Positions 4,428 through 62,740 of a stretch of 64,000 nt of DNA are shown piece by piece. Below the pieces are notes generated by a model. That model had not been told where the DNA came from. It made no database searches and saw nothing but the letters and a program-made list of their open reading frames with translations. Numbering within the stretch: position 1 is the first letter of the stretch; each line of letters opens with the position of its first letter. A program made the translations under genes and the position numbers. Source of the stretch: a virus; IMG/VR virus record IMGVR_UViG_3300036851_000098, positions 1-64,000 of that record. One strand, 5' to 3'.

Positions 4428-4453
4428 TTCGCGGGCGAATCATCGCCTATAAT
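4428..4453 (+). promoter_or_regulatory. TTCGCG-N14-TATAAT promoter 1
   Basis: TTCGCG at 4428-4433 is separated by 14 bases from TATAAT, followed by GAGACCC and the AAGGAG of the gene at 4479. TTCGCG is part of an inverted repeat ATTCGC-GG-GCGAAT. Confidence 0.75.
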
Positions 4454-4478
4454 GAGACCCTTACATAAAGGAGAGTAA

Positions 4479-5145: not shown

Positions 5146-5171
5146 GGAGAGCCTACACGGGCTTTCCTTTT
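5146..5171 (+). terminator. Intrinsic terminator
   Basis: GGAGAGCC pairs with GGCTTTCC around a TACACG loop, followed by T4. It overlaps the next promoter by two bases. Confidence 0.75.
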
Positions 5172-5195
5172 CGCGTAAAAAACTTGTCATATAAT
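5170..5195 (+). promoter_or_regulatory. TTCGCG-N14-TATAAT promoter 2
   Basis: TTCGCG and a perfect TATAAT lie 14 bases apart. It drives a 19-codon gene and abuts the preceding terminator directly. Confidence 0.8.
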
Positions 5196-5218
5196 AGAAC
5201 CACTACTAAGGAGTAATC

Positions 5219-5338: not shown

Positions 5339-5364
5339 TTCGCGTATTTTTCATGTTGTATAAT
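5339..5364 (+). promoter_or_regulatory. TTCGCG-N14-TATAAT promoter 3
   Basis: TTCGCG and TATAAT 14 bases apart. No coding gene follows directly; the promoter leads into the structured RNA at about 5370. Confidence 0.8.
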
Positions 5365-5369
5365 GAAAG

Positions 5370-5679: not shown

Positions 5680-5705
5680 TTCGCGGATAGTTCACTCCGT
5701 ATAAC
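5680..5705 (+). promoter_or_regulatory. TTCGCG-N14-TATAAC promoter 4
   Basis: TTCGCG, 14-base spacer containing TTCACT, and TATAAC, then GAGACC and AAAGGAG before ATG 5730. Confidence 0.75.
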
Positions 5706-5729
5706 GAGACCACTACCTAAAGGAGTGTA

Positions 5730-6007: not shown

Positions 6008-6033
6008 TTCGCGAATTTTTCAGCTCATATAAT
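6008..6033 (+). promoter_or_regulatory. TTCGCG-N14-TATAAT promoter 5
   Basis: TTCGCG at 6008 and TATAAT at 6028, followed by GAGACTC; drives the gene at 6066. Confidence 0.8.
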
Positions 6034-6065
6034 GAGACTCTACACCTCTATCAAAGGAGTACAGC

Positions 6066-6321: not shown

Positions 6322-6347
6322 TTCGCGTATTTTTCATGCATTGTAAT
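6322..6347 (+). promoter_or_regulatory. TTCGCG-N14-TGTAAT promoter 6
   Basis: TTCGCG, 14-base spacer, TGTAAT, then GAGACCC and AAGGAG. The 20 bases before it resemble the upstream flank of promoter 3. Confidence 0.75.
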
Positions 6348-6371
6348 GAGACCCTACTAAGGAGAATTACA

Positions 6372-7595: not shown

Positions 7596-7621
7596 TTCGC
7601 GAAAAATTCACGTCATAAAAT
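7596..7621 (+). promoter_or_regulatory. TTCGCG-N14-TAAAAT promoter 7
   Basis: Starts directly after the stop codon of the HTH gene. TTCGCG and TTCACG half-sites lie 11 bases apart, and TAAAAT is at 7616. It leads into a noncoding RNA with twin hairpins. Confidence 0.75.
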
Positions 7622-7627
7622 GAGAAG

Positions 7628-8839: not shown

Positions 8840-9159
8840 TGCCCAAAGTACCCCAAAAGTCTTGGCGAGGACGCGAGTTTCCTCTTGACAAGCATCTGAA
8901 AGACATTCGCGCGGTACGAGTGAGCGCTATCGAAGAAGAGTTGGTGAATCGTGGCTTCTGGTACGTTCAAGTCAAAGGAGACAACGGAGAATTCAGAATT
9001 CGATGTCGGTGCGGAGACATCCGCCCATGGATTGAACATCACTTCGAACAACAGACTCTCTTAGATTTCACCATATTTCCATACAAATGGGATGTTGGTA
9101 GTAAGTTAGATGTAGTCAACATCTTCGTCAAGGCGAAGGTGCACAAACTCGCGACGTAA
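8839..9159 (+). CDS. Hypothetical protein with CRCG motif
   Basis: 106 aa. It contains IRCRCGDIRPW, a possible half of a metal site, and a preceding basic stretch. The final codons contain the CTCGCG element of the next promoter, so gene end and promoter overlap. Function unknown. Confidence 0.55.
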   Translation: MPKVPQKSWRGREFPLDKHLKDIRAVRVSAIEEELVNRGFWYVQVKGDNGEFRIRCRCGDIRPWIEHHFEQQTLLDFTIFPYKWDVGSKLDVVNIFVKAKVHKLAT

Positions 9160-9173
9160 ACATGCTGTATAAT
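9148..9173 (+). promoter_or_regulatory. CTCGCG-N14-TATAAT promoter 8
   Basis: CTCGCG within the end of the previous gene, 14-base spacer, perfect TATAAT at 9168. Leads into a folded leader RNA. Confidence 0.7.
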
Positions 9174-9297
9174 GAAAGGTATCAACTCGATACTGTTGTG
9201 TAACGAACTCTGAGCGCAGAGTCCAGACCTTTCTTCCACGTCCCTTTACGGGGCGACTAGCCTTAACCGGCGAAAGCCCCGTTCACGGGCTCATATT
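9174..9297 (+). ncRNA. Structured leader RNA with alternative terminator
   Basis: GAAAGGT (9174-9180) pairs with ACCTTTC (9227-9233). It encloses hairpins GTATC/GATAC (9079+100 to 9193) and ACTCTG/CAGAGT (9207-9222). Downstream, CGGGGC (9249-9254) can pair with GCCCCG (9276-9281), but the same bases can instead form CCCG-TTCA-CGGG (9278-9289), which precedes a T-rich tract. The two folds exclude each other, an attenuator or riboswitch-like arrangement before the gene at 9322. The start site would fall near 9180, so the outer stem may be incomplete. Confidence 0.55.
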
Positions 9298-14592: not shown

Positions 14593-14618
14593 TTCGCGTA
14601 AAATTCACGCATAATAAT
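14593..14618 (+). promoter_or_regulatory. TTCGCG-N14-AATAAT promoter 9
   Basis: TTCGCG and TTCACG half-sites lie 11 bases apart, then AATAAT and GAGACCC. CATATTT sits directly upstream at the edge of region B. Confidence 0.7.
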
Positions 14619-14651
14619 GAGACCCTAAAATCTATTCAAGGAGTATTTTTC

Positions 14652-15095: not shown

Positions 15096-15120
15096 TCGCG
15101 TGAGAAACACGCCATCTAAT
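15095..15120 (+). promoter_or_regulatory. TTCGCG-N14-TCTAAT promoter 11
   Basis: Begins in the T-tract of the preceding RNA unit. TCTAAT is followed by GAGACCC and AAAAGG before ATG 15147. Confidence 0.7.
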
Positions 15121-15146
15121 GAGACCCTACAAATAAAAGGATTTTC

Positions 15147-33760: not shown

Positions 33761-33786
33761 TTCGCGAAGTTTTCATGGGGTATAAT
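33761..33786 (+). promoter_or_regulatory. TTCGCG-N14-TATAAT promoter 12
   Basis: TTCGCG at 33761, TATAAT at 33781, then GAGACCC. Drives 33811. Confidence 0.8.
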
Positions 33787-33810
33787 GAGACCCTTATTGA
33801 AAGGAAAATC

Positions 33811-34027: not shown

Positions 34028-34055
34028 GAAGAGAATCTTCACGGATTCTCTTTTT
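34028..34055 (+). terminator. Intrinsic terminator
   Basis: AAGAGAATC pairs with GATTCTCTT, T-rich tail merges into the next TTCGCG. Confidence 0.85.
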
Positions 34056-34079
34056 CGCGAGATATTCACGCAGCATAAT
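34054..34079 (+). promoter_or_regulatory. TTCGCG-N14-CATAAT promoter 13
   Basis: TTCGCG and TTCACG half-sites 11 bases apart, CATAAT at 34074, GAGACCC after. Confidence 0.75.
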
Positions 34080-34112
34080 GAGACCCTATTCATCCTTAAC
34101 AGGAGACTTGTT

Positions 34113-43649: not shown

Positions 43650-44139
43650 TGGATGGAGGCCGGTGGAAGGATTTCCTGGTTATAGCATAAACGCCCTAGG
43701 CCAGATTGCAAGAGACTCTACTGGTCGGTTGCTGCGTCCAAGGTATAATCAGTATGGTGTCCCCTACGTCGGACTTATGCGAAATTGGCAACAGTGTATT
43801 CGTTCTCTACCCCGATTGGTGGCGTTGGCGTTTCTAGATAATCCATCGGATATTTTCGATACTCCGATTCAAATAGATGGGGATCCGGCTAACTGTCGAG
43901 CCGACAATCTGATGTGGCGTCCTCGGTGGTATGCGGTGCTTTACAAGAAGCAGTTTGAAAAGGAAGGTCGATATGAGAATCCTATCGATTCTCCTGTGCA
44001 TGCTGTGAACGAAGGAGAGCGTTTTTCAAACTCTTTGGAGGCAGCGTGCCGGTATGGTCTTCTAGAACGTGAGGTCGTGTTGTCTATTCTTAATAAGACA
44101 CCAGCATGGCCTACATATCAATTCTTCGAGATGCTGTAG
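43636..44139 (+). CDS. NUMOD4/HNH homing endonuclease-like protein
   Basis: 167 aa, ATG after TTGGAGAGAGCTG. WRPVEGFPGYSINALGQIAR is the NUMOD4 motif; the HNH-like core LPRLVALAFLDNP…IDGDPANCRADNLMWRP is degenerate at the first His, so activity is uncertain. The C-terminal part (SLEAACRYGLLEREVVLSIL) resembles a NUMOD1-type DNA-binding helix pair. Probably a homing endonuclease, possibly decayed. Confidence 0.7.
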   Translation: MIENDGWRPVEGFPGYSINALGQIARDSTGRLLRPRYNQYGVPYVGLMRNWQQCIRSLPRLVALAFLDNPSDIFDTPIQIDGDPANCRADNLMWRPRWYAVLYKKQFEKEGRYENPIDSPVHAVNEGERFSNSLEAACRYGLLEREVVLSILNKTPAWPTYQFFEML

Positions 44140-44146
44140 GGGTCAA

Positions 44147-44320
44147 ATGGAATCCGAGATTTTGGTAAACCTTAGTTTGCGTCTGCCTCAAGCGGATCGG
44201 CGAGCATTAGCTGACCATTTGGCCCCAGTTATCAAGGAGGCAATCATTGCTGGAGGAGACAGTGTAGTTGTTTCGTTGCAACCGTATGATCCAGACAAAG
44301 ACCCAGAAGGCGAGGAATAG
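44147..44320 (+). CDS. Hypothetical protein
   Basis: 57 aa, start after TAGGGGTCAA. ILVNLSLRLPQADRRALADH helical; small acidic tail. Unknown. Confidence 0.5.
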   Translation: MESEILVNLSLRLPQADRRALADHLAPVIKEAIIAGGDSVVVSLQPYDPDKDPEGEE

Positions 44321-44355
44321 AGCCAAATAGTGAGCAAATCACTCCTTATTTTTTT

Positions 44356-44365
44356 CAGATACTGG
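44356..44365 (+). promoter_or_regulatory. CAGATACTGG element
   Basis: Core of the repeated element, directly beside the −35 region of the next promoter. Placement suggests regulation of this promoter. Confidence 0.4.
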
Positions 44366-44391
44366 ATCGTGGAGAAATCGCGCCATATAAT
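44366..44391 (+). promoter_or_regulatory. ATCGTG-N14-TATAAT promoter 15
   Basis: Divergent −35-like box ATCGTG and TATAAT 14 bases apart. A hairpin GGG-TACAATAT-CCC with T-rich tail follows before the 44453 start, so it may be attenuated. Confidence 0.6.
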
Positions 44392-44452
44392 AGAAGGAGG
44401 GTACAATATCCCTTCTGCTTCTTTCTTTTTTCGGCGATCGGAAGGAGGTTTT

Positions 44453-44770
44453 GTGGCTGAGAACGCCTATCAGCGAAAATTGATCCGTAAGTTGAAGAGA
44501 ATGTTTCCTGGCTGCGAAATCCTCAAAAACGATTCGCAATATCTTCAAGGAGTGTTGGATCTTACAATTTTGTGGGGTCCTTTGTGGGCAATGCTTGAGG
44601 TTAAAACGTCTCGTGATGCTCCATTTCGTCCAAATCAAGAGTACTACATCAAGCGGTTTGATGAGATGGCGTTTGCGTCTTCTATCTGCCCCGAAGATGA
44701 AGAGGAGGTGCTAACTGCGCTTCAACAAGCATTCGCATCTCGAGGGGCAGCATGCGTTCCTCAGTCCTAG
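44453..44770 (+). CDS. VRR-NUC-type PD-(D/E)xK nuclease
   Basis: 105 aa, GTG after GGAAGGAGGTTTT. QRKLIRKLKRMFPGCEILKN, YLQGVLDLTILWGPLWAMLEVKTSRDAPFRPNQ has the D…ExK core with following Gln of VRR-NUC nucleases. Probably a Holliday-junction or flap-type endonuclease in replication or recombination. It overlaps the next gene by 56 bases in a different frame. Confidence 0.75.
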   Translation: MAENAYQRKLIRKLKRMFPGCEILKNDSQYLQGVLDLTILWGPLWAMLEVKTSRDAPFRPNQEYYIKRFDEMAFASSICPEDEEEVLTALQQAFASRGAACVPQS

Positions 44771-45275
44771 TTCGTATCACTGGATCAACTACGACGAAGA
44801 AAAACTTAGGTTTCGCTATAAGACTCTTCGTGCGGCGCTCGAAGGAATAGAGCAGCATCGCTACGCAGCGATTTGTATCGCCGAAAGGATTGTCCAAGAT
44901 GATGAAAGAACAACCCTGGGACTGTACATCAATCAATGCATTCAATACAGAATGCACCCAGAAATTGTCCTGTTTTATTCTCCTAATGCATTCGGAACAG
45001 TTGACGCCATTGCGTATCGATATCGAGTGCTTAGGATCTCAGATCTCAAGACAGGAGCCACTCGAGTCTCAGAACATCAGCTGGAAGTATATGCAGCGTT
45101 TTTCTGTCTCGAGTACGAAATTAGTCCTTTCCACATGAGAGGAATTGAGCTTCGTATTTACAAAGACGGCAAAGTACAGGTGTACGATGCTGATCCCCAC
45201 TACATAAAGGGGCTCATGGATAAGATCGTTCGTTTCGACGGAATTCTCAACATGCTTCGAGAGGAGGTGTCGTAG
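44715..45275 (+). CDS. RecB/Cas4-like exonuclease with probable CTG start
   Basis: About 186 aa. The frame opens at a stop at 44712. CTG 44715, seven bases after GAGGAGGTG, is the first start and gives KHSHLEGQHAFLSPSSYHW, a conserved phage N-terminus that would be lost from ATG 44952. FGTVDAIAYR, RISDLKTGATRVSEHQLEVY provide the D, D-x-K and Q of the RecB/Cas4 nuclease core. Likely processes DNA ends for recombination. A programmed frameshift from the previous gene is a less likely alternative. Confidence 0.65.
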   Translation: MRFNKHSHLEGQHAFLSPSSYHWINYDEEKLRFRYKTLRAALEGIEQHRYAAICIAERIVQDDERTTLGLYINQCIQYRMHPEIVLFYSPNAFGTVDAIAYRYRVLRISDLKTGATRVSEHQLEVYAAFFCLEYEISPFHMRGIELRIYKDGKVQVYDADPHYIKGLMDKIVRFDGILNMLREEVS

Positions 45276-48139
45276 TGCGCGTTACTGAAGAAGACTACTT
45301 GATGCATTACGGCATCAAGCGTAAGTCAGGTCGGTATCCTTGGGGATCTGGTCAGAATCCTCTACAACGTTCAAAGACGTTCCTAGGAATAATCGAGCAA
45401 CACAAGAAAATCGACAAAATGACTGAGTCCGAGATTGCTAGGGCATACTCGGATAATGATCACAAACTCAGTGTCGCTGACATTAGAGCAATGAGGTCTA
45501 TTGCTGGTGCAGAAGTCAAGATGGATCAGATTCGTACTGCCCAACGTCTAAGAGATAAGGGTATGGGCGCGTCTGCGATTGCAAGGCAGATGGACCTAAA
45601 CGAGTCTACTGTCCGTTCGCTTCTGGAGCCAGGTAGGCAGGAGAAGTTGGACATTCTCATGAATACCGCCGACATGCTCAAGCGGCAGGTCGAAGAAAAG
45701 GGTATGATTGACGTCGGTTCAAACGTCAATCTAGATCTTCCGATTGGCGACAATCCTGCCACCCGAATCGGAATTAGTCCAGATAAGTTTGCTACTGCTC
45801 TTTCCATGCTCAAGGAAGAGGGCTACCAAGTTCATACTTTCAACGCCCCTCAGGTTGGAACTGGAGAGATGACCAAGTACAAGGTGCTGGTCAAGCCTGG
45901 GGTTACGCAGAAAGAAGCTTGGTCCAATCGTGACAACATTCGTCTGATCTCGGAAAAGACCGACGATCGTGGCAGAAATTTCACCGATTTTGGTATCCAG
46001 CCTCCGTTGAATGTCTCCTCCAAGCGAGTGGGCATCAACTATAAGGAGGATGGTGGTAGTGACGCGGACGGCGTGATCTATGTTCGTCCTGGTGTCCCTG
46101 ATATAACGCTTGGTAAATCTCGTTATGCTCAGGTTCGTATTGCGATTGATGGTTCACACTATCTCAAGGGTATGGCTGTCTACAAAGACAATCTACCCCC
46201 TGGCATGGATCTTCAGTTCAATACGAACAAGTCCAACACGGGCAATAAGCGTGACGCTATGAAACCCCTGAAGAGGGACCCTCAAACGGGTGAGGTCGAT
46301 AAGGATAACCCATTTGGTGCCGTCATCAAGAAGGATGGCCAGATCCTAGATAAGAATGGGAAAGTCAAGTCGGCGATGAATCTCATCAACGAAGAGGGTG
46401 ATTGGGATACATGGTCAAGAAACTTGTCCAGTCAGGTTCTCTCGAAGCAGAAGCCTGAACTAATTAAGACCCAATTGGATCTTACTCATGATCGGCGTAG
46501 AGCTGAGCTTGAAGAAATTCGCTCGCTCACTAACCCGCAGATCAAGAGAAAGCTTCTCGAAACTTTCGCTGAAGAGACTGATGCTGCAGCTGTGCATCTC
46601 AAAGCAGCAGCTATGCCTAATCAGGCTACTAAAGTCATTCTTCCGTCGAACAAAGTAAAGCCTAATGAGATCTTTGCTCCTACTTTCAGGGATGGAGACA
46701 AGGTTGCTCTTGTGCGATTCCCTCATGCGGGAACGTTCGAGATTCCAGAACTGACTGTTAACAACAAGTCACGTGAAGCAAAGGCTCTAGTTGGACTGAA
46801 CAAGGGTGGGACAGCAAGAGACGCTGTAGTCATTCACCCCAAGGTAGCAGAGAGACTATCTGGTGCTGACTTTGATGGCGACGCTGTCGTTGTCATTCCA
46901 AACAATCGTGGGCGGATTACCCATAAGCCCCCGTTGGAGGGACTTAAGGGATTTGATCCTCAAAGCGAATTTGCTCCCTATCATGGTATGAAGACCATTG
47001 ATGGAGGAACGTACAACGCTACTACAAAGAAGATCGAATACCCTAAGGACAAGGACGGTAACGAACGCAGTCCCAACAAGTCGAGAAAACAGCATGAGAT
47101 GGGTAACGTTACCAACCTAATCTCTGACATGACCATTCGTGGTGCTAACAACGACGAGATAGCTCGTGCAGTGAAGCACTCTATGGTGGTTATCGATTCT
47201 GAGAAGCATGTTCTCGACTTCAAGGCTTCGGAGAGAATCAACGGAATCACAGCTCTTAAGAAGAAGTATCAAGGCGTGCACCCTAAGACAGGGCAAGCAC
47301 GTGGTGCTTCTACGATCATTACTCGTGCTACTGCACAGACTCATCCTGTACAAAGGAAGGACGCATCAGCTGGTCCTGGCAGAACTAGGATCTCTAGTGG
47401 TACGGTTGACAATCGTACAGGTAAGAAGCTGTATGAACCTACGGGTAAGCGTAAGCGTGACGGTAGTCTAGCTACGTTTAAGTCTCAGAAGTTGGCTGAG
47501 ACAGATGATGCCTTTGAGTTGGTGTCAAAAGGTAGGGGCACTACGGAAGAACAGCTCTATGCTGAGCATTCTAATCGGCTTAAGGCTATGGCCAATGAGG
47601 TACGTAAAGAACTAATCCGTATCAAGCCCATCCCCTACTCGCCCTCAGCCAACAAGGTGTACAAGCATGAAGTGGATTCGCTTACAGCGAAATTGCGTAA
47701 GGCTGAAAAGAACGCCCCCCTCGAACGGCAGGCCCAGGCTGTAGCCAGGCGGATCGTTGCGGATCGTAAACGCGCAAACCCAGGGATGGAGAAGGACGAG
47801 GAGCGGAAGATCAAAGGTCAGGCGTTGACCGAAGCTCGACGTAGAACAGGAGCGGGTAAAGTACGCCTAGGTTCTGATGAATCCCCCATTACTGATCGTG
47901 AGTGGGAAGCTATTCAGAATGGTGCGATCTCGAATCACATGTTGGATAACATCTTGAAGAACTCTAACATAGACAAGATCCGTGAGCGCGCAACACCTAG
48001 AGAGAAGCCTGTGATGAGTAATGTCATGACAGCTAGGGCCAGGCAGATGATTGCGTCTGGGTACCCATTGTCGGTCATTGCTGAGCAACTGGACATTCCT
48101 GTGTCCACCCTTAAGTCTGGGCTTGAGGATGGGGGGTGA
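45275..48139 (+). CDS. RNA polymerase beta-prime-like protein with DFDGD motif
   Basis: 954 aa, GTG overlapping the previous stop, after GAGGAGG. The N-terminus contains LMHYGIKRKSGRYPWGSG (residues 9-26), a tag related to HYG…RWG motifs of phage head proteins. An HTH follows (DKGMGASAIARQMDLNESTV, about 90-115). VALVRFPHAGTFEIPELTV and VVIHPKVAERLSGADFDGDA (DFDGD at 532-536) align with the double-psi beta-barrel of RNAP beta-prime (R-x-P and HP…ADFDGD). Basic middle segments and a C-terminal HTH end it. This resembles single-chain YonO or crAss-like RNAPs. Transcription activity is inferred; the second barrel is not assigned. Confidence 0.65.
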   Translation: MRVTEEDYLMHYGIKRKSGRYPWGSGQNPLQRSKTFLGIIEQHKKIDKMTESEIARAYSDNDHKLSVADIRAMRSIAGAEVKMDQIRTAQRLRDKGMGASAIARQMDLNESTVRSLLEPGRQEKLDILMNTADMLKRQVEEKGMIDVGSNVNLDLPIGDNPATRIGISPDKFATALSMLKEEGYQVHTFNAPQVGTGEMTKYKVLVKPGVTQKEAWSNRDNIRLISEKTDDRGRNFTDFGIQPPLNVSSKRVGINYKEDGGSDADGVIYVRPGVPDITLGKSRYAQVRIAIDGSHYLKGMAVYKDNLPPGMDLQFNTNKSNTGNKRDAMKPLKRDPQTGEVDKDNPFGAVIKKDGQILDKNGKVKSAMNLINEEGDWDTWSRNLSSQVLSKQKPELIKTQLDLTHDRRRAELEEIRSLTNPQIKRKLLETFAEETDAAAVHLKAAAMPNQATKVILPSNKVKPNEIFAPTFRDGDKVALVRFPHAGTFEIPELTVNNKSREAKALVGLNKGGTARDAVVIHPKVAERLSGADFDGDAVVVIPNNRGRITHKPPLEGLKGFDPQSEFAPYHGMKTIDGGTYNATTKKIEYPKDKDGNERSPNKSRKQHEMGNVTNLISDMTIRGANNDEIARAVKHSMVVIDSEKHVLDFKASERINGITALKKKYQGVHPKTGQARGASTIITRATAQTHPVQRKDASAGPGRTRISSGTVDNRTGKKLYEPTGKRKRDGSLATFKSQKLAETDDAFELVSKGRGTTEEQLYAEHSNRLKAMANEVRKELIRIKPIPYSPSANKVYKHEVDSLTAKLRKAEKNAPLERQAQAVARRIVADRKRANPGMEKDEERKIKGQALTEARRRTGAGKVRLGSDESPITDREWEAIQNGAISNHMLDNILKNSNIDKIRERATPREKPVMSNVMTARARQMIASGYPLSVIAEQLDIPVSTLKSGLEDGG

Positions 48140-48143
48140 AACA

Positions 48144-48434
48144 GTGGCTCACGAACCTGAATACATGTTGACAACGGTAGACAACCCATTTGATCCTTGG
48201 ACACAGTGGGATGAATGGTTCGCTTACGATCAGAATTCTGGGTACAATACCCCCGGCCTCCTGGCCAGGGTAGCTCTTGCCTCTAACGAATTAGCTGAAG
48301 TGGATCAAGATCATGCTATCCAGACAGCTATCCAAGAGATCGTGCGCGAGAATGTTTCTGGTGTTCATACGAAAGTGAAAGAAGGAGAAGTACAAACACT
48401 TTCTAATCAGAACGAATCTGAGACCGAGGCATAA
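48144..48434 (+). CDS. Conserved phage protein (DxWFAYDxxxGYNT type)
   Basis: 96 aa, GTG. YMLTTVDNPFDPWTQWDEWF, DQNSGYNTPGLLARVA, HAIQTAIQEIVREN is a widespread siphophage protein, usually encoded between genes like the one before and the head or terminase module. Function unknown. Confidence 0.75.
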   Translation: MAHEPEYMLTTVDNPFDPWTQWDEWFAYDQNSGYNTPGLLARVALASNELAEVDQDHAIQTAIQEIVRENVSGVHTKVKEGEVQTLSNQNESETEA

Positions 48435-48788
48435 GGTTTATGTTAAATCTCAGGTATAGAAATTAGGTATCTCACATGAGTGAAGCACGACCCCCCTACC
48501 TCCACCTACCATGGATAGATAGTTAAAGAAAAACTTTTTCATACATGTTCTTTTCTTTTTTTTTGTAAAAGATTAGAAAAGAAATTTTTAGAACGGGTAG
48601 GGGGGAGGGGTCAAAAAAATTTAACCCCCCGTGTGCATCGCTCGGCTCCCAAAAATATCCCCGGGGGGATTTTTTCTGGGAACAATCTGGTATGGTACCC
48701 GGCATAAACCCCTTGGTAAGCGCGAAGAAGCCTTACTCATCAGTTCGAAACATAGTGCAAAAATTTTCAGATAAGAAAGGAGGCACCG
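48435..48788 (+). other. Intergenic region with complementary G/C tracts
   Basis: No gene. CCCCCCTACC (48491-48500) is fully complementary to GGTAGGGGGG (48596-48605). Poly-T tracts and a second GGGG/CCCC pairing lie near 48606-48625, and a CCCCGGGGGG block is near 48660. Together these could form long hairpins (transcript barrier), or mark a packaging or origin site. No TTCGCG-type promoter is visible. Confidence 0.5.
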
Positions 48789-49475
48789 ATGGGCATCCAT
48801 GTCAAGGGTGTTGAACAGCAGTACTCCAATCTGGGCCGCCAGATGGTTCATGATTCCAAGTCGCGTGCCTTCCCAACCGATGTCATCATCGACAAATCGA
48901 AGTGGGTTGATAAGAAGGTTCGTATCTACGACCCTGAGATCAATCCGAATCAGTGTCACGGCGAGTGCACGGGTTGCGCGAAAGCGATGGAGATGAATGC
49001 GCTTGGTAATCGGGTCGCCGGTGTTGTTCTCGGAATGAACAAAGCACACGAACTGTATTCGGCGGCAACTAAGATCGATCCATTCGAAGGAACGTGGCCG
49101 CCTGAAGATACTGGGTCGTCTGGTCTCGCTGCAGCGAAGGCGGCAAAAGCCTTAGGGCTCGGTGGGGCCTATCGTCACGTATTCGGTGGAGCAAACGAAG
49201 TTGTGCAGTTGATCATGCTCGGCCGCGTTGTCAACATCGGGACGTGGTGGTACGAAGGTATGTTCCACCCGAACTCATACAAAGTCATCGTGCCAACTGG
49301 CGACATTGTTGGCGGCCATCAGTACATCGCAAGAGGGTACGATGTCGACACCGACCGTGTCATGATTCGCTGCTGGTGGGGCTCGTTCCGAGATGTATGG
49401 ATCAAACGGTCGGACCTTCATAAGCTTTTACTGGATGGTGGGGATGCTCACATCCAGGATCGACTCAAGCCGTAG
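48789..49475 (+). CDS. Papain-like peptidase-fold phage protein
   Basis: 228 aa, ATG after AAAGGAGGCACCG. HGECTGCAKAMEMNALG with Cys at about residue 60, PFEGTWPPEDTGSSGLAAAK, YRHVFGG and the late GGHQYIARGYDVDTDRVMIR match phage proteins with the papain-like C1/C39 fold (Cys, then His). The third residue before the Cys departs from the usual Gln oxyanion position, so activity is uncertain. Possibly a structural or morphogenetic peptidase. Confidence 0.65.
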   Translation: MGIHVKGVEQQYSNLGRQMVHDSKSRAFPTDVIIDKSKWVDKKVRIYDPEINPNQCHGECTGCAKAMEMNALGNRVAGVVLGMNKAHELYSAATKIDPFEGTWPPEDTGSSGLAAAKAAKALGLGGAYRHVFGGANEVVQLIMLGRVVNIGTWWYEGMFHPNSYKVIVPTGDIVGGHQYIARGYDVDTDRVMIRCWWGSFRDVWIKRSDLHKLLLDGGDAHIQDRLKP

Positions 49476-49478
49476 CTT

Positions 49479-49595
49479 ATGACTGTCCTGTTTAGTGTGA
49501 TAAACATTCATTCGGGTGCAGTCATATCCACCGTGACATACGTTGTCGGGCTGAAGTCCGATCGCGTACTATCGGTATCGTCAGGTAAGAGATAG
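49479..49595 (+). CDS. Possible 38-aa peptide
   Basis: ATG shortly after the peptidase stop; no good RBS. MTVLFSVINIHSGAVISTVT, mostly beta. Low confidence. Confidence 0.3.
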   Translation: MTVLFSVINIHSGAVISTVTYVVGLKSDRVLSVSSGKR

Positions 49596-49617
49596 TACAC
49601 ACAACTAAGGAGGCATC

Positions 49618-49830
49618 ATGGCCCCTATCGAAGACGAGAATGTCCCGCACGAGGCTGAGCACGCTGCTGCAACCGATGCTCAGATGCGCCGCACTTCAGA
49701 TCACGCGGCCATCGCAGATCTCGCGGCCCCGTCCGCGGCATATGTGGAGGCTGAGCAGATCGCACAGACCAACGCGATCAATGCGATCCTCGACGTCCTC
49801 CGAGACGCCGAGCTGATCCCGAGCGCGTAA
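49618..49830 (+). CDS. Hypothetical helical protein
   Basis: 70 aa, ATG after AAGGAGGCATC. Ala/Asp-rich helices (HEAEHAAATDAQMRRTSDHA, AYVEAEQIAQTNAINAIL). Resembles short phage head-associated proteins but no firm family. Confidence 0.6.
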   Translation: MAPIEDENVPHEAEHAAATDAQMRRTSDHAAIADLAAPSAAYVEAEQIAQTNAINAILDVLRDAELIPSA

Positions 49831-49899
49831 ACTTCTGTGACGTGGGGTAGGCGCTTACTCAGGTCTGCCCCACCTCACGAAGAGGAAGGAGGTGAGTGT

Positions 49900-50145
49900 A
49901 TGAACGCTACCACTCACGAAGCAGTGGGAACCGTGATCGAGTATGTTGATCCGGTCGGTAAGAGTCACGATGCGCTGGTCACCGCTGTTTGGGGACCAGA
50001 TCTTGGTGTGAACTCCATTAACTTGGTGTTCGTTTCGGATAATCATGCGAAGACCGACTCGTGTGGTCGCCAGATTGTACGAGAAACTAGCGTCTCGCCC
50101 GAAGGACCAAACACAGCATACGGTAGATTTTACCGAATCAAGTAG
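49900..50145 (+). CDS. Hypothetical protein
   Basis: 81 aa, ATG after GGAAGGAGGTGAGTGT. Beta-rich (VGTVIEYVDPVGKSHDALVT). Unknown. Confidence 0.55.
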   Translation: MNATTHEAVGTVIEYVDPVGKSHDALVTAVWGPDLGVNSINLVFVSDNHAKTDSCGRQIVRETSVSPEGPNTAYGRFYRIK

Positions 50146-50213
50146 TCTCAATTGGGGTGGCGCCGACGAGGTACCTCAAAGCCCCGAGGCCATATACAAA
50201 CAGGAGAGACATT

Positions 50214-50447
50214 ATGCATCTTACAAAGGATGAACTCGCGCATCGGTTCCAGTTCCATCCGGCCGACGCACAGAACAAGAAGGAAGCTCATGAGGAAGTT
50301 CGCAATGTGTTGCTCGAGGCTGCCGACAAGATTGTTGACCTTACGGGTGCTCAGTCACGTGAACAATCGCTTGCGGTGACCCATCTCGAGGAAGCTATGT
50401 TCTGGGCAAACGCTGCCATTGCACGCGGCGATGGACCGAGGACGTGA
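50214..50447 (+). CDS. Acb2-like cyclic-nucleotide sponge (anti-CBASS)
   Basis: 77 aa, ATG after CAGGAGAGACATT. RFQFHPADAQNKKEAHEEVR, NVLLEAADKIVDLTGAQSRE, QSLAVTHLEEAMFWANAAIA follows the Acb2 family pattern (FxxHPP…K…R…REQSLAxTxLEEAMxWANAxIAR). Acb2 proteins sequester cyclic di- and trinucleotide signals and block CBASS abortive infection. The short helical protein has the right size. Its neighbours are head- and wall-related enzymes rather than early genes. Confidence 0.8.
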   Translation: MHLTKDELAHRFQFHPADAQNKKEAHEEVRNVLLEAADKIVDLTGAQSREQSLAVTHLEEAMFWANAAIARGDGPRT

Positions 50448-50890
50448 GCGCACTTCTCATGATTCCGCGACTTATTGTCGTGGACCGGGAGAACTTCACA
50501 CTCGACATCTATCGATGGCGTACGTTCAAACAACGTTACGATACTCAACATCGATATATGGTCACCGTAGGCAAGGAAGGCAATGAGACTCCTCATGGTC
50601 TGTACTTTGTCGAGCGTAAGACACGAGAAGCAGACTGGCGTATTCCAGAAGACCCGGACTATTCCGAAGAAAGCTGGGGAAGCATCGTTCCACACGGCGC
50701 CCCAGGCAATCCGTTCAAAAGCGGATTCATATCTCTGGGTGGAGATGTATCGGGCATTGGCATTCACGATACGACGTTTGAACCTCGAGTGGGTACAGCG
50801 TCTAGTCATGGGTGTATCCGGATGAGAACTGAGGATTTTCTGGAGATCTATGATAGGTGCAAGATCGGAACACCAGTCTATCTACACTAG
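50444..50890 (+). CDS. L,D-transpeptidase (YkuD) family protein
   Basis: 148 aa, GTG overlapping the preceding stop. RLIVVDRENFTLDIYRWRTF, HRYMVTVGKEGNETPHGLY, SGIGIHDT, SHGCIRMRTEDFLEIYD: His, and the catalytic Cys in SHGCIRM of YkuD domains (about residue 122). It can cross-link or edit actinobacterial peptidoglycan, where 3-3 cross-links are common. No signal peptide; it may act as virion-associated wall enzyme. Confidence 0.8.
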   Translation: MSALLMIPRLIVVDRENFTLDIYRWRTFKQRYDTQHRYMVTVGKEGNETPHGLYFVERKTREADWRIPEDPDYSEESWGSIVPHGAPGNPFKSGFISLGGDVSGIGIHDTTFEPRVGTASSHGCIRMRTEDFLEIYDRCKIGTPVYLH

Positions 50891-50932
50891 GAGAGTTGGC
50901 TAACAGGACTGTAGGGGACCTGGGAGGCAACA

Positions 50933-51253
50933 ATGTATTTCGTTGTACCACAGACGTGGGTTACTCCGGCGATAACCGCCGCGGCTCTTCATTTCGGGCC
51001 AATTGGCCAACCTGTGGAAGTTAAGTATCGGGCTCTCGATTGGGGGATAGGTACGATCGACAGACCGAACGTGATAATTGTGGATAAGCGACCAAGATGG
51101 GATTGGTCTAGAGTAAAAGCTCAATGCACGCTTGTTCATGAGTATGGACATTTGACAGGAAATAGACACTCAGACAATCCGAAATCAGTAATGTATCCGG
51201 TTTACAGATACCGGGTTTGCAAACGATGGCTAATACGCCATGGGGTGCTGTAA
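50933..51253 (+). CDS. Minimal metzincin-type metallopeptidase
   Basis: 106 aa, ATG after GGGAGGCAACA. HEYGHLTGNRH (about residues 67-77) is the extended metzincin zinc site HExxHxxGxxH, and SVMYP supplies a Met-turn. Only a small beta-rich N-terminal part precedes the site, so it is a minimal catalytic domain. No signal peptide. Target unknown: virion or wall proteins, or host factors. Confidence 0.7.
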   Translation: MYFVVPQTWVTPAITAAALHFGPIGQPVEVKYRALDWGIGTIDRPNVIIVDKRPRWDWSRVKAQCTLVHEYGHLTGNRHSDNPKSVMYPVYRYRVCKRWLIRHGVL

Positions 51254-51269
51254 AAGAAGGAGAGATAAA

Positions 51270-51650
51270 TTGACCAACGCACGGCCGAACACAAAGTTCT
51301 TGGACAATCTTGACGAGGCTACTCTTCGCCAAGTGTGTAGCAGGCTAGATGCGCTTGAACCTTATATTGCGGAGCATCGAGATCTTGTCAAACGTCGCCG
51401 TGCGTTGGAGATTCGCCTGGGCAAAATTTCAAAGTCGGATCGAGTGCGACAACTTCTTGCTCATCATCCTAATGGGCTTACACGAGCAGTGATAGGAGAT
51501 AAACTTGACATAACAGTCGGACTGTCGGGAGTGTTGGGTGAACTTAAACGACAAGGGCATATCGATCAGCCTGGGAAAGGACTCTATCGGCTCACTGACC
51601 TTGGCCATCAGGCCACGAGTTCAATGGTGGTTAACCAAAACGCAACCTAA
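51270..51650 (+). CDS. Winged-helix protein
   Basis: 126 aa, TTG after GAAGGAGAGATAAA. Coiled-coil start, then DRVRQLLAHHPNGLTRAVIG, DKLDITVGLSGVLGELKRQG and GKGLYRLTDLG give a winged helix. Overlaps the sigma factor frame by over 100 bases. Confidence 0.6.
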   Translation: MTNARPNTKFLDNLDEATLRQVCSRLDALEPYIAEHRDLVKRRRALEIRLGKISKSDRVRQLLAHHPNGLTRAVIGDKLDITVGLSGVLGELKRQGHIDQPGKGLYRLTDLGHQATSSMVVNQNAT

Positions 51651-52284
51651 TCGACAAGATCATGAAGATCTTGTAAGCGCGGTGATGATTCAGCTTTTAG
51701 AGGCTGAAGTAAGATTTACCGGTACTCCAGAAACTTGGCCAGCATATGCTTGGCCTAGAATCAAAGGCACTATTCTTGACGAAATTCGTAAAACTAAACC
51801 AAGAGGGTTTCGTCGACGGCGACACGATGATACACCTGTGATCGTGTCTATTAACGAATTCATTGGGGAAACCGATCAGACTCTAAGCGATACGATTCCT
51901 GATATAAAAGCGATCATCGATCATGATCCGGTCGCAGAACAGAAATTTGCTGATGCTATCTCCGCACTTTCTGTTAACGAACGGGTTGTGGTTGAGTTAA
52001 TGATTGACCAGGATCTGTCATCAGCCGATATAGCAAAAGTCCTTGGCGTAACTAATGGGCGAGTAAGTCAGATGGCGAAAGCTATTCGACATCAACTAGT
52101 AGAGAGTCTTGCGCACCCAATGCTACGCAAGGAGGCTCTTTGTTCTCTACGCTCTGAAAGCTTTCTCCGTGATCGAGTCCGGAGTGGTCACAGCGTAAGA
52201 GAGATAGCAGACGAACTAGGTGTAGCTCGAACCAGCGTTCGAGAATGGATGAGGCTATACCAAATTCAACCAGTCAATCGCTGA
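51538..52284 (+). CDS. Sigma-70 family RNA polymerase sigma factor
   Basis: 248 aa from GTG 51538; a TTG near 51592 is an alternative, because the first 20 codons overlap the preceding gene. RQDHEDLVSAVMIQLLEAEV and WPRIKGTILDEIRKTKPRGF resemble region 2 of sigma factors of the FliA/SigB type. LSVNERVVVELMIDQDLSSA, DIAKVLGVTNGRVSQMAKAI is region 4. A further HTH (SGHSVREIADELGVARTSVR) follows at the C-terminus, an uncommon addition. It probably directs late phage or host transcription. Confidence 0.75.
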   Translation: MNLNDKGISISLGKDSIGSLTLAIRPRVQWWLTKTQPNRQDHEDLVSAVMIQLLEAEVRFTGTPETWPAYAWPRIKGTILDEIRKTKPRGFRRRRHDDTPVIVSINEFIGETDQTLSDTIPDIKAIIDHDPVAEQKFADAISALSVNERVVVELMIDQDLSSADIAKVLGVTNGRVSQMAKAIRHQLVESLAHPMLRKEALCSLRSESFLRDRVRSGHSVREIADELGVARTSVREWMRLYQIQPVNR

Positions 52285-52325
52285 AGTAAGCGGTCAAACT
52301 AACACTAAAGAAAGGAGTGTGACTA

Positions 52326-52655
52326 ATGGCCAGATCAAGATCGTCTGATCGTAAGAACAACCCAGCGCGCACTCCTGAAGCGCGGGAGCTACAACTTGCC
52401 TCGGCGGCTTACGACCTAGCTGAGGAACAGCTCAACGCTGGCACAGCCTCATCGCAGGTAATCACCCACTTCCTGAAGATGGGGTCAACAAGGGAACGTC
52501 TCGAGCAGCAAAGCATCCAGCACGACATCGAACTCAAGAAGGTGAAGGCCGAGCAGATCGAAGCGCAGAAGCACATTGAGAGCCTCTTTGTCGAGGCCAT
52601 CAGTGCGATGCGGTCGTATCAGGGTGGGGAGCCAGTCGAGTCTCCGGACGAGTAA
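52326..52655 (+). CDS. Terminase small-subunit-like protein
   Basis: 109 aa, ATG after AAAGGAGTGTGACTA. ASAAYDLAEEQLNAGTASSQ, VITHFLKMGSTRERLEQQSI, and a Lys/Glu-rich coiled coil with AEQIEAQKHIES are typical of small proteins encoded near terminases in Gram-positive phages, thought to be small terminase subunits. TerL itself is 8 kb downstream. Confidence 0.6.
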   Translation: MARSRSSDRKNNPARTPEARELQLASAAYDLAEEQLNAGTASSQVITHFLKMGSTRERLEQQSIQHDIELKKVKAEQIEAQKHIESLFVEAISAMRSYQGGEPVESPDE

Positions 52656-52660
52656 GTTCT

Positions 52661-53071
52661 ATGCGAACTCGAACCTATAGAGAGCTTCGACGTATTGGAA
52701 CCTTTGAAGAGCGCTTCCAATATCTCTCGCTTTCTGGTGAAGTCGGAGCAGCGACTTTCGGCTTTGATCGTTGGGTCAATCAGCAGTTCTATCGTTCCAG
52801 AGAGTGGAAGCAAGCTCGCAACTATGTTGTTGTAAGAGACAACGGTTGTGATCTGGGAATTCCTGGTTTAGAAATTCAAAATGGGTATGTGGTTCACCAC
52901 ATGAATCCACTGACTCCAGAAGATTTGGAACGAGGTGGCGATTGGATTCTCGATCCAGAGTATCTGATCACCACCACACATCGCACGCACAACGCCATTC
53001 ACTACGGTGATGAGAGTTTACTCCGCAGAGCGCCTGTTGAAAGACGACCTGGGGATACAAAGCTGTGGTAA
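52661..53071 (+). CDS. HNH endonuclease
   Basis: 136 aa, ATG. YRSREWKQARNYVVVRDNGC, DLGIPGLEIQNGYVVHHMNP, LITTTHRTHNAIHYG: the HNH core (HH-M-P, later H…NAIH) of phage nucleases that commonly sit beside the terminase and aid DNA packaging. It directly follows the small-terminase-like gene. Confidence 0.8.
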   Translation: MRTRTYRELRRIGTFEERFQYLSLSGEVGAATFGFDRWVNQQFYRSREWKQARNYVVVRDNGCDLGIPGLEIQNGYVVHHMNPLTPEDLERGGDWILDPEYLITTTHRTHNAIHYGDESLLRRAPVERRPGDTKLW

Positions 53072-59771: not shown

Positions 59772-60980
59772 ATGGGTAGTAATCTTGTCGTAGTGGCTAT
59801 CCCCGATGAGAACGATCGTGTATGGAAGGTCTCGAGCGAAAAGATTCCTCATCTCACCGTCCTCTTCCTGGGTGATGTGGACGAGGTTTCAAATCTCGAT
59901 CAGATCGTCCAGTTCGTGGAGCATGCGGCCGAGCAGACGCTGCGGCGGTTCTATCTTCCGGTGGACCGTCGCGGTGAGCTTGGCGCCGACAAAGCGGACG
60001 TTCTCTTTTTCAAGAAGGGACGTTACGACTTCAAGGCGATTCGAGACTTCCGAACGGCGCTTCTTCAGGACAGCAACATCAGGAAAGCGTACGATTCTAC
60101 AACACAATTCGAAACGCCGCCTGCGGTTGGTTCTCCTGGGCAGTCCTGGATCCCTCATCTGACTCTCGGCTATCCGACGTCGCCAGCCAAGCCTGAGAAG
60201 GGAGATCAGTATCCCGGATTCTACGACGTCTGCTTCCACAAGATCGCTGTGTGGGTGGGAGATTACGAGGGCTCCGAGTTTCTGTTGAAGGATCAGTGGG
60301 AAGAGATGGAGCTAGCTGAGGTTGCGCCAATGGACGTAGCTATGAGCGATCTGGTAAGTCGGAATCAGGCTCGTATTGCTCTCGGCCTTAAGGAGATCGA
60401 AGCCGAGCTCGAACACTATGGCGTGAAGGGTATGCGTTGGGGACAGCGTAGGTCGGAGCGTCAGCTTGCTGTGGCTCAGAAGCGAAGGAATGACGCTAAG
60501 ACTCTGGAAGAAGCTGCTGCTCGTAGAGGCGAAGGGGCTACTCGTGGAATCCTTGAGCGACTCGCTGCTCAAGAGCGAAGCGGAGCGCTTAAGCTTGAAG
60601 CCAAAGCTAGGTCAAGACAAGAGAAATTGGCTGAGAAAACGGCTACAGTAGAGCCTACCGCTAAGTCTGTTGTTCCTCCTGGGTCGAAGCGTAAGACTAA
60701 AATCGATGTTGAAGGTGGAGAAAATCATCCGGCTACGGAAGACGCGCTTAACGTAGCTAAGGCTCAAGTTAAATTGCAAAAGAGTGGTGCTGCTGCTCTC
60801 TCTAATAAAGAGCTTCGTGAAGTTGCTAATCGGCTGCAACTAGAGCAACAAGTCAAGCAGCTGTCTACGTCTGGTGGACGTAAGTTTGTAACTAACCTGT
60901 TGAGAGAACAGGGCAAGCAACAGACTCAAAGTCTTATCAACGAGCAGATCAGAGACTTGCGGCGTCGCCAGGCAGCATAA
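59772..60980 (+). CDS. 2H-phosphoesterase fused to HYGVKGMRWG head-tag
   Basis: 402 aa, ATG after AAAGGAGGTGAAGCTTCAAA. Residues 1-200 contain the two signature H-x-T motifs, IPHLTVLFLGD (about 25-35) and IPHLTLGYP (about 127-135), of the 2H phosphodiesterase fold (LigT/Acb1-like). EHYGVKGMRWGQRRSERQ (about 213-230) is the tag found in phage head-associated and muF-type proteins. A long Ala/Glu/Lys coiled coil follows. Potential roles: RNA or cyclic-oligonucleotide cleavage, and capsid packaging. The link to anti-CBASS is inference. Confidence 0.7.
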   Translation: MGSNLVVVAIPDENDRVWKVSSEKIPHLTVLFLGDVDEVSNLDQIVQFVEHAAEQTLRRFYLPVDRRGELGADKADVLFFKKGRYDFKAIRDFRTALLQDSNIRKAYDSTTQFETPPAVGSPGQSWIPHLTLGYPTSPAKPEKGDQYPGFYDVCFHKIAVWVGDYEGSEFLLKDQWEEMELAEVAPMDVAMSDLVSRNQARIALGLKEIEAELEHYGVKGMRWGQRRSERQLAVAQKRRNDAKTLEEAAARRGEGATRGILERLAAQERSGALKLEAKARSRQEKLAEKTATVEPTAKSVVPPGSKRKTKIDVEGGENHPATEDALNVAKAQVKLQKSGAAALSNKELREVANRLQLEQQVKQLSTSGGRKFVTNLLREQGKQQTQSLINEQIRDLRRRQAA

Positions 60981-60994
60981 GAAAGGAGGGGTAC

Positions 60995-62740
60995 GTGGCA
61001 CTGTCCAACAAAGCAGTCCCGGTGTATTACGGGCAGTTCCGCGATGCGGTGATGCGGGGCGACATTCCGGTCAACCGGGAAATCTCACTAGAGATGAACC
61101 GGATCGATTCGCTCATCGCAAACCCCAACATCTATTACGACGATCAGGCAGTGGAGGGCTTTCTCCGCTTTTGCGAGGGCGAGATGACCCTTACAGATGG
61201 AAACGATCTCCACCTCCTATTCACATTCAAGCTATGGGCCGAACAGATCTTCGGCTGGTATTACTTCGTTGACCGGTCGATTTACGTCCCCTCTGATGGT
61301 AATCACGGGGGTCATTACGAGACTAGGACGATCAAAATCCGGTTGATCAAGAAGTTCTACCTTATCGTAGCCCGAGGTGCGGCCAAATCGATGTTCGCTG
61401 CATTAATCCAGGCATACTTCCTAACCGTCGATACGGCGACTACTCATCAGATCACAGCGGCCCCGACCATGAAGCAGGCAGAAGAGGTCATGTCCCCCTT
61501 CCGTACTGCCATCACCAGAGCTAGAGGTCCGTTGTTCAAGTTCCTTACCGAGGGATCTCTGCAGAATACTACCGGAGATCGGATGCTTCGGCAGAAGTTG
61601 GCAGCAACTAAGAAGGGAGTCGAGAACTTCCTTACTGGATCACTGCTTGAAGTCCGTCCAATGACCATTAATAAGCTTCAGGGTCTTCGAACCAAGATCG
61701 CTTCAATCGATGAGTGGCTTTCTGGTGACCTTCGAGAGGATGTAATTGGCGCAGTTGAGCAGGGTGCTTCTAAGCTTGATGACTATTTGATCATTGCTAT
61801 CTCTTCTGAGGGCACTGTTCGAAATGGTTCCGGTGACACAATCAAAATGGAACTTGCTGACATCCTCAAGGGTGAGTATGCAGCTCCTCACGTTTCAATC
61901 TGGCACTACAAACTGGACGAATTGGAGGAAGTTGGCGATCCGTCTACGTGGTTGAAGGCGAATCCTAATCTTGGGCAAACAGTTACATACGAGACTTATC
62001 AGCTCGATGTCGAAAGAGCTGAAAAAGCTCCAGCTGCTCGTAACGATATTCTTGCCAAGCGTTTTGGTATCCCGATGGAGGGTTACACATACTTCTTCAC
62101 GTATGAAGAGACTCTTCCGCATCGTGTTCGTGAGTTCTGGCAGCTTCCGTGTTCTCTGGGTATGGATGCTTCACAGGGTGACGACTTCTGGGCGTTTACT
62201 TTCTTGTTCCCGCTAGGCGGAAGCCGATTTGGTGTAAAAACTCGCAGCTACATCACCGAGCGGACGCTCATGATGTTGCAGCCTGCCATGCGCCAGAAGT
62301 ATGAAGAGTTCATCCAAGAGGGAAGTCTTCATGTAATGCCGGGAACCGTTCTCGAATGGGAACAGATCTATGATGACATGGATGCGTTTATCATCAAAGC
62401 AGAGTACGACGTTCGATGCTTTGGTTACGACCCGTACAATGCTAAAGAGTTCGTTACTCGATGGGAAGCTGAAAATGGCCCATTCGGTATTGAGAAGGTG
62501 ATTCAGGGTGCGAAGACTGAGTCCGTGCCGTTAGGAGAGTTGAAAAAGCTTTCAGAAGATCGTTTTCTCATATTTGACCAGTCTCTGATGTCATTCGCCA
62601 TGGGTAATGCTATTACTCTGGAAGATACAAATGGTAATCGCAAGCTGCTTAAGAAGCGCCAAGAGGAGAAAATCGACAACGTGGCGGCCATGATGGATGC
62701 TTACATCGCGTTCAAGGCAAACACAGAGGCATTCGAATGA
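60995..62740 (+). CDS. terL: Terminase large subunit
   Basis: 581 aa, GTG after AAAGGAGGGGTAC. LIVARGAAKSMFAALI near residue 125 is the deviant Walker A of TerL, SIDEW near 237 is motif II, and MDASQGDDFWAF near 389, FGYDPYNAKE and DNVAAMMDAYIAFK supply the RNase H-like nuclease aspartates. The HK97-type terminase packages DNA into the procapsid. It lies between a 2H-phosphoesterase and fibre-like genes, not beside a portal gene. Confidence 0.9.
   Translation: MALSNKAVPVYYGQFRDAVMRGDIPVNREISLEMNRIDSLIANPNIYYDDQAVEGFLRFCEGEMTLTDGNDLHLLFTFKLWAEQIFGWYYFVDRSIYVPSDGNHGGHYETRTIKIRLIKKFYLIVARGAAKSMFAALIQAYFLTVDTATTHQITAAPTMKQAEEVMSPFRTAITRARGPLFKFLTEGSLQNTTGDRMLRQKLAATKKGVENFLTGSLLEVRPMTINKLQGLRTKIASIDEWLSGDLREDVIGAVEQGASKLDDYLIIAISSEGTVRNGSGDTIKMELADILKGEYAAPHVSIWHYKLDELEEVGDPSTWLKANPNLGQTVTYETYQLDVERAEKAPAARNDILAKRFGIPMEGYTYFFTYEETLPHRVREFWQLPCSLGMDASQGDDFWAFTFLFPLGGSRFGVKTRSYITERTLMMLQPAMRQKYEEFIQEGSLHVMPGTVLEWEQIYDDMDAFIIKAEYDVRCFGYDPYNAKEFVTRWEAENGPFGIEKVIQGAKTESVPLGELKKLSEDRFLIFDQSLMSFAMGNAITLEDTNGNRKLLKKRQEEKIDNVAAMMDAYIAFKANTEAFE

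Follow-up and report, generated by a model that had tools for sequence, protein, structure and literature searches.

A predicted single-chain two-barrel RNA polymerase with a candidate packaging tag and a candidate promoter family in phages of Gram-positive bacteria

Introduction

Two-barrel RNA polymerases that travel in the virion are known from crAss-like phages, from jumbo phages (PMC7598289) and from phage P23-45, whose virion enzyme forms a fusion with the tape measure and whose gp64 is a non-virion RNA polymerase (PMC10770324). YonO of phage SPbeta is a single-chain two-barrel RNA polymerase with a catalytic aspartate triad that transcribes late genes (PMC5467207). For phage T4, internal proteins were found to share short N-terminal capsid-targeting sequences that are sufficient for packaging, and related basic internal proteins bearing such sequences have also been described (PMC9026906). 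Here we analyse an open reading frame (ORF) at 45275..48139 in the first 64,000 bases (the window) of a 79,866-base virus record, IMG/VR IMGVR_UViG_3300036851_000098, together with the peptide at its N-terminus and a repeated DNA motif of the same phage. Window features given below with two dots between their coordinates lie on the plus strand.

The ORF product is predicted to be a polymerase with both catalytic barrels in one chain. Its N-terminal peptide (the HYG tag) is related to Pfam DUF7211, a family that comprises HYGVKGMKWG-type peptides, and the DNA motif has the core TCGCR-N6-ACA-N5-TATARTGA, scored as present at 13 or more of 16 positions. We consider it fairly probable that the protein is a head-packaged, single-chain, two-barrel, DNA-dependent RNA polymerase that is loaded by its tag and transcribes early genes from promoters formed by the motif.

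Results and discussion

Sequence and predicted fold of the polymerase

The ORF encodes 954 amino acids from a GTG start with no internal stops, and the assignment to PHROG 4291 as a single-chain two-barrel RNA polymerase was based on profile, alignment, AlphaFold model and structure search. The PHROG 4291 profile matched over the full length (1173 bits, residues 3-952). The window protein was aligned with relatives from viral contigs, giving 37 sequences. A preliminary description of the window had pointed to a DFDGD motif, an R-x-P segment upstream of it and a tag at the N-terminus, and all three were found in that order. The catalytic DFDGD motif (residues 532-536, 46868..46882) is invariant in 37/37 aligned relatives and lies at the end of HPKVAERLSGADFDGD (residues 521-536), with RFPH (residues 481-484) upstream. 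R481, P483, H484 and L528-D536 (LSGADFDGD) are all invariant, and so are the tag residues G24 and G26. These motifs belong to a beta-prime-like double-psi barrel region at about residues 465-545 (RFPH...FEIPELTVNN...HPKVAERLSGADFDGD; 46667..46909). A beta-like double-psi barrel region lies at about residues 265-350 (46067..46324, boundaries approximate); both regions were placed by alignment, AlphaFold model and structure match. In the latter region G280, R288, K298-G299 and K319 are invariant, and the three basic residues among them (R288, K298 and K319), placed by alignment, are candidate catalytic residues. Judged from the conservation across 37 sequences, this set of motifs is far from chance.

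Both ends of the protein carry recognizable elements. The N-terminus reads LxHYGIKRKSGRYPWGSG, and the tag itself, LMHYGIKRKSGRYPWGSG (residues 9-26, 45299..45352), is a long-form variant related to DUF7211 in which H11, G13, R16, S18, G19, R20, Y21, W23 and S25 are conserved in at least 90% of the 37 polymerases. Residues 1-33, which include the tag, are predicted by AlphaFold to be disordered, and this fits the expectation for a tag. Helix-turn-helix (HTH) motifs had been proposed at both ends, and this held up. The N-terminal one (residues 82-116, 45518..45622; HTH_7 / Sigma70_r4-like) is seen with Pfam and AlphaFold, residues 82-113 scoring over the Pfam HTH_7 cutoff. The C-terminal one (about residues 915-948, 48017..48118) rests on three helices at residues 916-952 of the AlphaFold model and on weaker profile matches to phrog_14025 and, in the homologue from Lactococcus phage 1706, to Sigma70_r4. 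On a 95.6-kb contig, a second protein (G013:C1:16723-17538) matched the polymerase profile in its N-terminal HTH section.

The AlphaFold model had a predicted local distance difference test score (pLDDT) of 80.7 and a predicted template modelling score (pTM) of 0.66. The preliminary description had named the lack of a double-psi barrel fold as a result that would refute it; this was not what the search gave, and over residues 241-785 the model matched QDE-1, plant RDR2 and phage two-barrel polymerases. By VIA-align the match to QDE-1 (residues 681-1196) had Z 17.4 and a root-mean-square deviation of 4.1 over 378 residues, matches to RDR2 had Z of about 14-17, and those to the RNA polymerases P74 gp62 and P23-45 gp64 had Z 12.9 over 355-366 residues; Foldseek gave E 4.7e-9 for QDE-1. 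The matched segment covers both catalytic barrels in one chain, and the DFDGD region falls within the QDE-1 match. Among the 37 polymerases, 29 matched Pfam RdRP (QDE-1-like) at E<=0.1 (best E 3.9e-6), and the window protein scored 14.4 bits against this family (PF05183), under the gathering cutoff of 23.8. When the PDB was searched by sequence, the protein alone and the alignment both returned weak HTH and unrelated matches only, with no polymerase match, and recognition of the polymerase therefore needed a fold search. A search of a viral structure library with the polymerase returned few two-barrel proteins. Given the fold matches, the invariant LSGADFDGD and RxPH and the similarity to Pfam RdRP, the ORF product is, as modelled, a single-chain two-barrel polymerase.

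Homology to YonO was also considered and rejected (3% probability by hhalign across 20 columns; lowest BLASTP E 2.5), YonO being a member of phrog_8308. The YonO precedent cited in the preliminary description thus holds for function and not for sequence.

Distribution of the family

Homologues of the polymerase were found in 250 of 50,697 deposited phage records, mostly from phages of Arthrobacter, Gordonia and Streptomyces, with others from Lactococcus, Curtobacterium, Rhodococcus, Microbacterium and Faecalibacterium phages and a human-gut siphovirus. The members 1706 orf75, Rima gp86, ReqiPepy6 gp106 and that of FP_oengus are homologous over the full length at 35-52% identity, and the relatives share the HYG tag, DFDGD and two HTHs, several of them also neighbouring genes. 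Annotators have named the homologues 'RNA-dependent RNA polymerase', 'helix-turn-helix protein' or 'hypothetical protein', and that of Faecalibacterium phage FP_oengus 'putative RNA polymerase'. In the deposited records examined, most often labelled 'RNA-dependent' or 'HTH protein', function, role of the tag and promoter carry no annotation. The gene so named in many cultured actinophages and lactococcal phages is probably that of a virion RNA polymerase. Where the actinophage genome is linear, the gene is usually found at its far right end, with a single small gene beyond it. The closest relative of the window polymerase (79% identical) is encoded on a 54,002-bp contig, L036, that has the promoter motif and gave no DUF7211 match; its head module may be missing.

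The HYG tag and the head module

The likeness of the polymerase N-terminus to tags of phage head proteins was borne out in the same phage. A 402-residue protein encoded at 59772..60980, a putative head cargo with a 2'-5' RNA ligase (2H)-like N-terminal domain, carries an internal DUF7211 tag, LEHYGVKGMRWGQRR (60393..60458), and its LEHYGVKGMRWG scores 43.6 bits against Pfam DUF7211. The gene lies immediately 5' of that for the terminase large subunit (TerL, 60995..62740), which marks the head module. In six annotated relatives the slot from just 5' of TerL to the portal was counted by hand, and 23/23 of its genes were tagged: gp7, 9, 10 and 11 of Rima, gp13 and 15-21 of ReqiPepy6, gp6 and 8-11 of Teacup, gp16, 18 and 19 of OhMyWard, gp5 of HotFries and gp12 and 14 of BitterVaud1. 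Outside the slot, apart from the polymerase, the only tagged gene in these six was OhMyWard gp5. The deposited Rima gp7 and HotFries gp56 lack the tag because their annotated start codons (L044:2282-3130 and L058:40499-43240) lie 3' of it, and these starts are probably mis-called.

All 88 tagged proteins scanned matched DUF7211, as expected since nearly all had been selected by pattern. Their other domains were 2'-5' RNA ligase-like/2H phosphoesterase (11 proteins), glutamine deamidase (6), GNAT (about 5) and portal (1). The papain-fold glutamine deamidase-like proteins, the GNAT acetyltransferases and the one portal fused to a tag (L059-L178) are candidate injected effectors. Tagged proteins are basic, with a median of +0.084 charges per residue compared with -0.019 for other ORFs of the same loci (Mann-Whitney p ~1e-62, the proteins not being independent).

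The polymerase carries the longer variant HYGxxRxSGRYPWGSG, and all 120 ORFs found with this long form in viral contigs are polymerases. It shares (D/E)(Y/F)LxHYG...WG with DUF7211. In the human-gut phage L048 (MT835616) two small, very basic proteins (1284-1898 and 3636-4214) have HYGLPRRSGRYK[WY]GSG; both match the polymerase PHROG at its tag end, one of them matches cargo PHROGs as well, and this links the long and short forms of the tag.

We propose that the peptide is a signal for packaging. That it instead has another head-module role, such as binding of the maturation protease or of nucleic acid, seems to us somewhat unlikely. Such a role would sit easily with our literature search, which found no experiment on DUF7211. 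It fits less well with a portable N-terminal or internal module that occurs on unrelated head-module enzymes and on a polymerase encoded far away, and with the position of the tag, which lies within the first 60 residues in 145 of 171 cases.

Probable virion association

As first deposited in GenBank (EU081845), Lactococcus phage 1706 has the polymerase homologue orf75 labelled 'structural protein'; the later RefSeq name is 'RNA-dependent RNA polymerase'. The only tagged proteins found in 1706 are orf75 and orf7, the latter with two degenerate tags and a net charge of +39, and both are labelled 'structural'. The small proteins orf62 and orf71, encoded outside the structural cluster, bear the same label, which suggests that the 1706 label came from experiment. 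The record of ReqiPepy6 gp106 gives similarity to '1706_gp75, structural protein', and the ReqiPoco6 homologue is also labelled 'structural protein'.

The deposits in 1706 and ReqiPoco6 speak against a DNA-dependent phage RNA polymerase that is made after infection and kept out of the virion, with the HYG peptide serving docking, regulation or some other purpose. So do the relation of the polymerase tag to that of head-module proteins and the absence of the motif directly 5' of the polymerase gene in Rima, Teacup, ReqiPepy6 and this phage. Precedents for a non-virion enzyme are the nearest phage structures, P74 gp62 and P23-45 gp64, of which gp64 is non-virion (PMC10770324), and YonO with its late-gene transcription (PMC5467207). 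On balance we regard a non-virion polymerase as unlikely. Virion packaging, which the preliminary description had put forward as its own inference, gains indirect support from the structural labels, the tag shared with the head module and the position of the motif 5' of probable early genes, and we keep it conditional.

The promoter-like motif

The phage has 12 copies of the motif, all on one strand, at 4429..4455, 5171..5197 (a weaker copy), 5340..5366, 5681..5707, 6009..6035, 6323..6349, 7597..7623, 9149..9175 (16 of 16 core positions), 14594..14620, 15096..15122, 33762..33788 (the best position weight matrix score in this phage) and 34055..34081. Several are preceded by a terminator-like hairpin and T-run, among them the copy at 6009 and that at 34055, which directly follows one. 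About 30-38 bases past the start of the TATA box there is often a start codon that has a ribosome-binding site. The genes behind the motif are called early by position and size only.

In Rima, 12 copies close to TCGCA-N6-ACA-N5-TATARTGAGACC, all on the plus strand, occupy intergenic gaps among the small genes that separate holin from DNA polymerase. In this phage, Rima and the other actinophages scanned, nearly all copies are on the plus strand, and most fall within the genes from tail/holin to DNA polymerase. Counts with the 13-of-16 core were 12 for Rima, 7 for HotFries, 12 for Teacup, 18 for ReqiPepy6 (17 plus), 13 for OhMyWard (12 plus) and 7 for BitterVaud1 (all plus); the human saliva phage D_HF4_2 had 7, all plus. 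Shuffled actinophage and window genomes averaged 0.3-1.4, and the control phages phiC31 and TP901-1 had 1 and 0 sites; neither gave a match to the polymerase profile, a result uninformative alone. All sites were on one strand in 62/62 multi-site loci. Firmicutes relatives have their own versions with the spacing kept, TTTTACATAnnCTATAGTAG in 1706 and TTTTACATACCCTATAATGA in P118. At 13 matches the 1706-type core was too loose, giving counts near the shuffled level in AT-rich genomes, and only high-scoring copies and gaps inspected by eye were used. FP_oengus has 12 exact copies of CGCG-N15-TTTATG, all plus (shuffles 0), in which CTTTATG replaces TATAATG at unchanged spacing. Dense single-strand arrays of the motif, up to 10 in 8.7 kb, were seen on L321, L327, L354, L359 and similar contigs.

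The motif might also be a promoter for host RNA polymerase aided by a phage DNA-binding or sigma factor, the two-barrel protein having another or later role. TATAAT does resemble a host -10 box, the motif follows the whole lineage and not the polymerase alone, and this phage encodes a sigma-like protein (51538-52284) with sigma-70 regions 2 and 4 and an extra C-terminal HTH. Sigma-70 region 2 was, however, found in just 1 of 28 motif- or polymerase-bearing phages, namely this one. Moreover, the conserved upstream box is too near TATAAT for a sigma-70 -35 element, conservation extends beyond the -10 position, and FP_oengus has CTTTATG, all of which makes host sigma-70 a poor recogniser. A host-polymerase promoter is in our view quite unlikely. 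In window positions 44000-53000, sigma-70-type promoter-like sites were rarer than in shuffles (2 vs 9.4 expected). A scan of 28 phages for a T7-type polymerase gave no match, a negative that carries no weight because the control gave none either.

That the protein is an RNA-dependent RNA polymerase with QDE-1-like activity on RNA, as its database product name and its top structural matches (QDE-1 and plant RDR2) would have it, is most improbable given DNA-genome phages, a promoter-like DNA motif tied to the lineage, phage structural relatives (P23-45 gp64 and gp96) described as transcribing phage genes (PMC10770324), and a label that seems derived from the Pfam RdRP resemblance.

Co-occurrence of polymerase, tag and motif

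Among contigs of at least 38 kb chosen by the motif alone, 21/23 encoded the polymerase, as did 13/16 of the non-reference contigs of at least 41 kb chosen by the short tag alone; DUF7211 was found in 19/25 contigs chosen by the polymerase. This association makes the polymerase the natural user of the motif without pointing to it alone. In these phages the DNA polymerase occurs in 253 records, compared with 250 for the RNA polymerase. Because the two distributions are essentially the same, the association of tag, motif and polymerase reflects, at least in part, their being markers of one phage lineage. The strong form of the argument, in which the motif is evidence specific to the polymerase, was rejected on the same ground.

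This near identity of distribution weighs against a packaged polymerase acting on the motif, and so does a series of smaller points. Three of the 16 tag-selected and two of the 23 motif-selected contigs, which may be fragments, have no polymerase, and 6 of 25 polymerase-bearing contigs have no DUF7211 match. The polymerase tag resembles DUF7211 weakly (E 0.14 and 9.6e-4, below cutoff), and in this phage the genes between TerL and portal carry no tag. The TATAAT box is host-like, as discussed above. The ReqiPoco6 label may have been copied from 1706, whose own 'structural' label reportedly came from mass spectrometry.

Proposed mechanism

The observations in the preliminary description were confirmed and its interpretation is supported. 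The fold and catalytic motif, the sharing of the tag and where in the head module it occurs, and the repeated DNA motif with its distribution are computed results. From them we infer that the polymerase is packaged, what the tag does, that the DNA motif acts as a promoter, that the genes behind it are early and that this enzyme uses it, as follows. The disordered N-terminal HYG...SGRYPWGSG peptide, related to the DUF7211 tag of head-module proteins, would act as a capsid-targeting tag, by which the polymerase would be packed into the phage head, to be ejected with the DNA. In the new host it would bind the repeated TCGCR-N6-ACA-N5-TATARTGA promoter, probably via its two HTHs, and transcribe the small early genes behind it. 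The motif is lacking from late genes, among them the polymerase gene and the structural genes, and host RNA polymerase would presumably transcribe these. The phage would then inject a transcription machine of its own into the Gram-positive bacteria that it infects.

A broader version has, in our estimate, an even chance of being right. In it, the HYG/DUF7211 peptide would load a set of enzymes into the head of siphophages of Gram-positive bacteria, and the injected polymerase would fire the early-gene promoters. The cargo would include acetyltransferases, RNA-end enzymes and a glutamine deamidase-like domain besides the two-barrel RNA polymerase, and the scope would be about 250 records from phages of Streptomyces, Gordonia, Arthrobacter, Rhodococcus, Lactococcus, Faecalibacterium, Bifidobacterium and others.

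Other features of the window

Directly 5' of the polymerase lies a RecB-like exonuclease gene (44952..45275), a neighbour shared with several relatives, and directly 3' a small conserved gene of phrog_4303 (48159..48434, start approximate). A 942-residue collagen-like protein built of GPxG repeats, with WRSGTGAPSGALG as a recurring unit, is encoded at 55550-58378 and is probably a tail fibre.

Comparison with known systems

For the gene deposited as 'RNA-dependent RNA polymerase' or 'HTH protein' there are now a predicted fold, a candidate signal for packaging and a candidate promoter, which can be tested in laboratory phages. If the proposal is true, a head-packaged single-chain two-barrel polymerase joins the crAss-like, jumbo-phage and tape-measure-fused enzymes, and it would explain how such phages could begin transcription without host sigma factors; the portable peptide would also allow further injected effectors to be recognized from sequence. 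The evolution of cellular RNA polymerases is another subject for which small two-barrel polymerases with defined promoters would be of use. A literature search with tag and motif strings found no phage paper using them, most subscription journals lying outside the search. A head tag shared by a polymerase with other cargo, and a promoter family that extends from Lactococcus to Streptomyces phages, appear undescribed in the literature searched.

Among the solved folds the closest over residues 241-785 are QDE-1 and plant RDR2, which differ in being eukaryotic RNA-silencing enzymes with other ends and another role. P23-45 gp64 and P74-26 gp62 (8f72, 8f5m) are, like the window polymerase, phage-encoded with two barrels in one chain, and are smaller, at about 590 residues. 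Neither is known to have HTHs or an HYG tag. YonO shares the two-barrel single chain, whereas its sequence similarity to the window protein is undetectable and it falls in a different PHROG. The crAss-like virion RNA polymerase of phi14:2 (6vr4) is a packaged two-barrel enzyme whose single chain, as given in the PDB, has about 2,166 residues, and its Foldseek match to the polymerase was weak (E 0.048). For the tag, the precedent is the T4 capsid-targeting sequences, which are unrelated in sequence to DUF7211 and to which the putative targeting role of DUF7211 would correspond.

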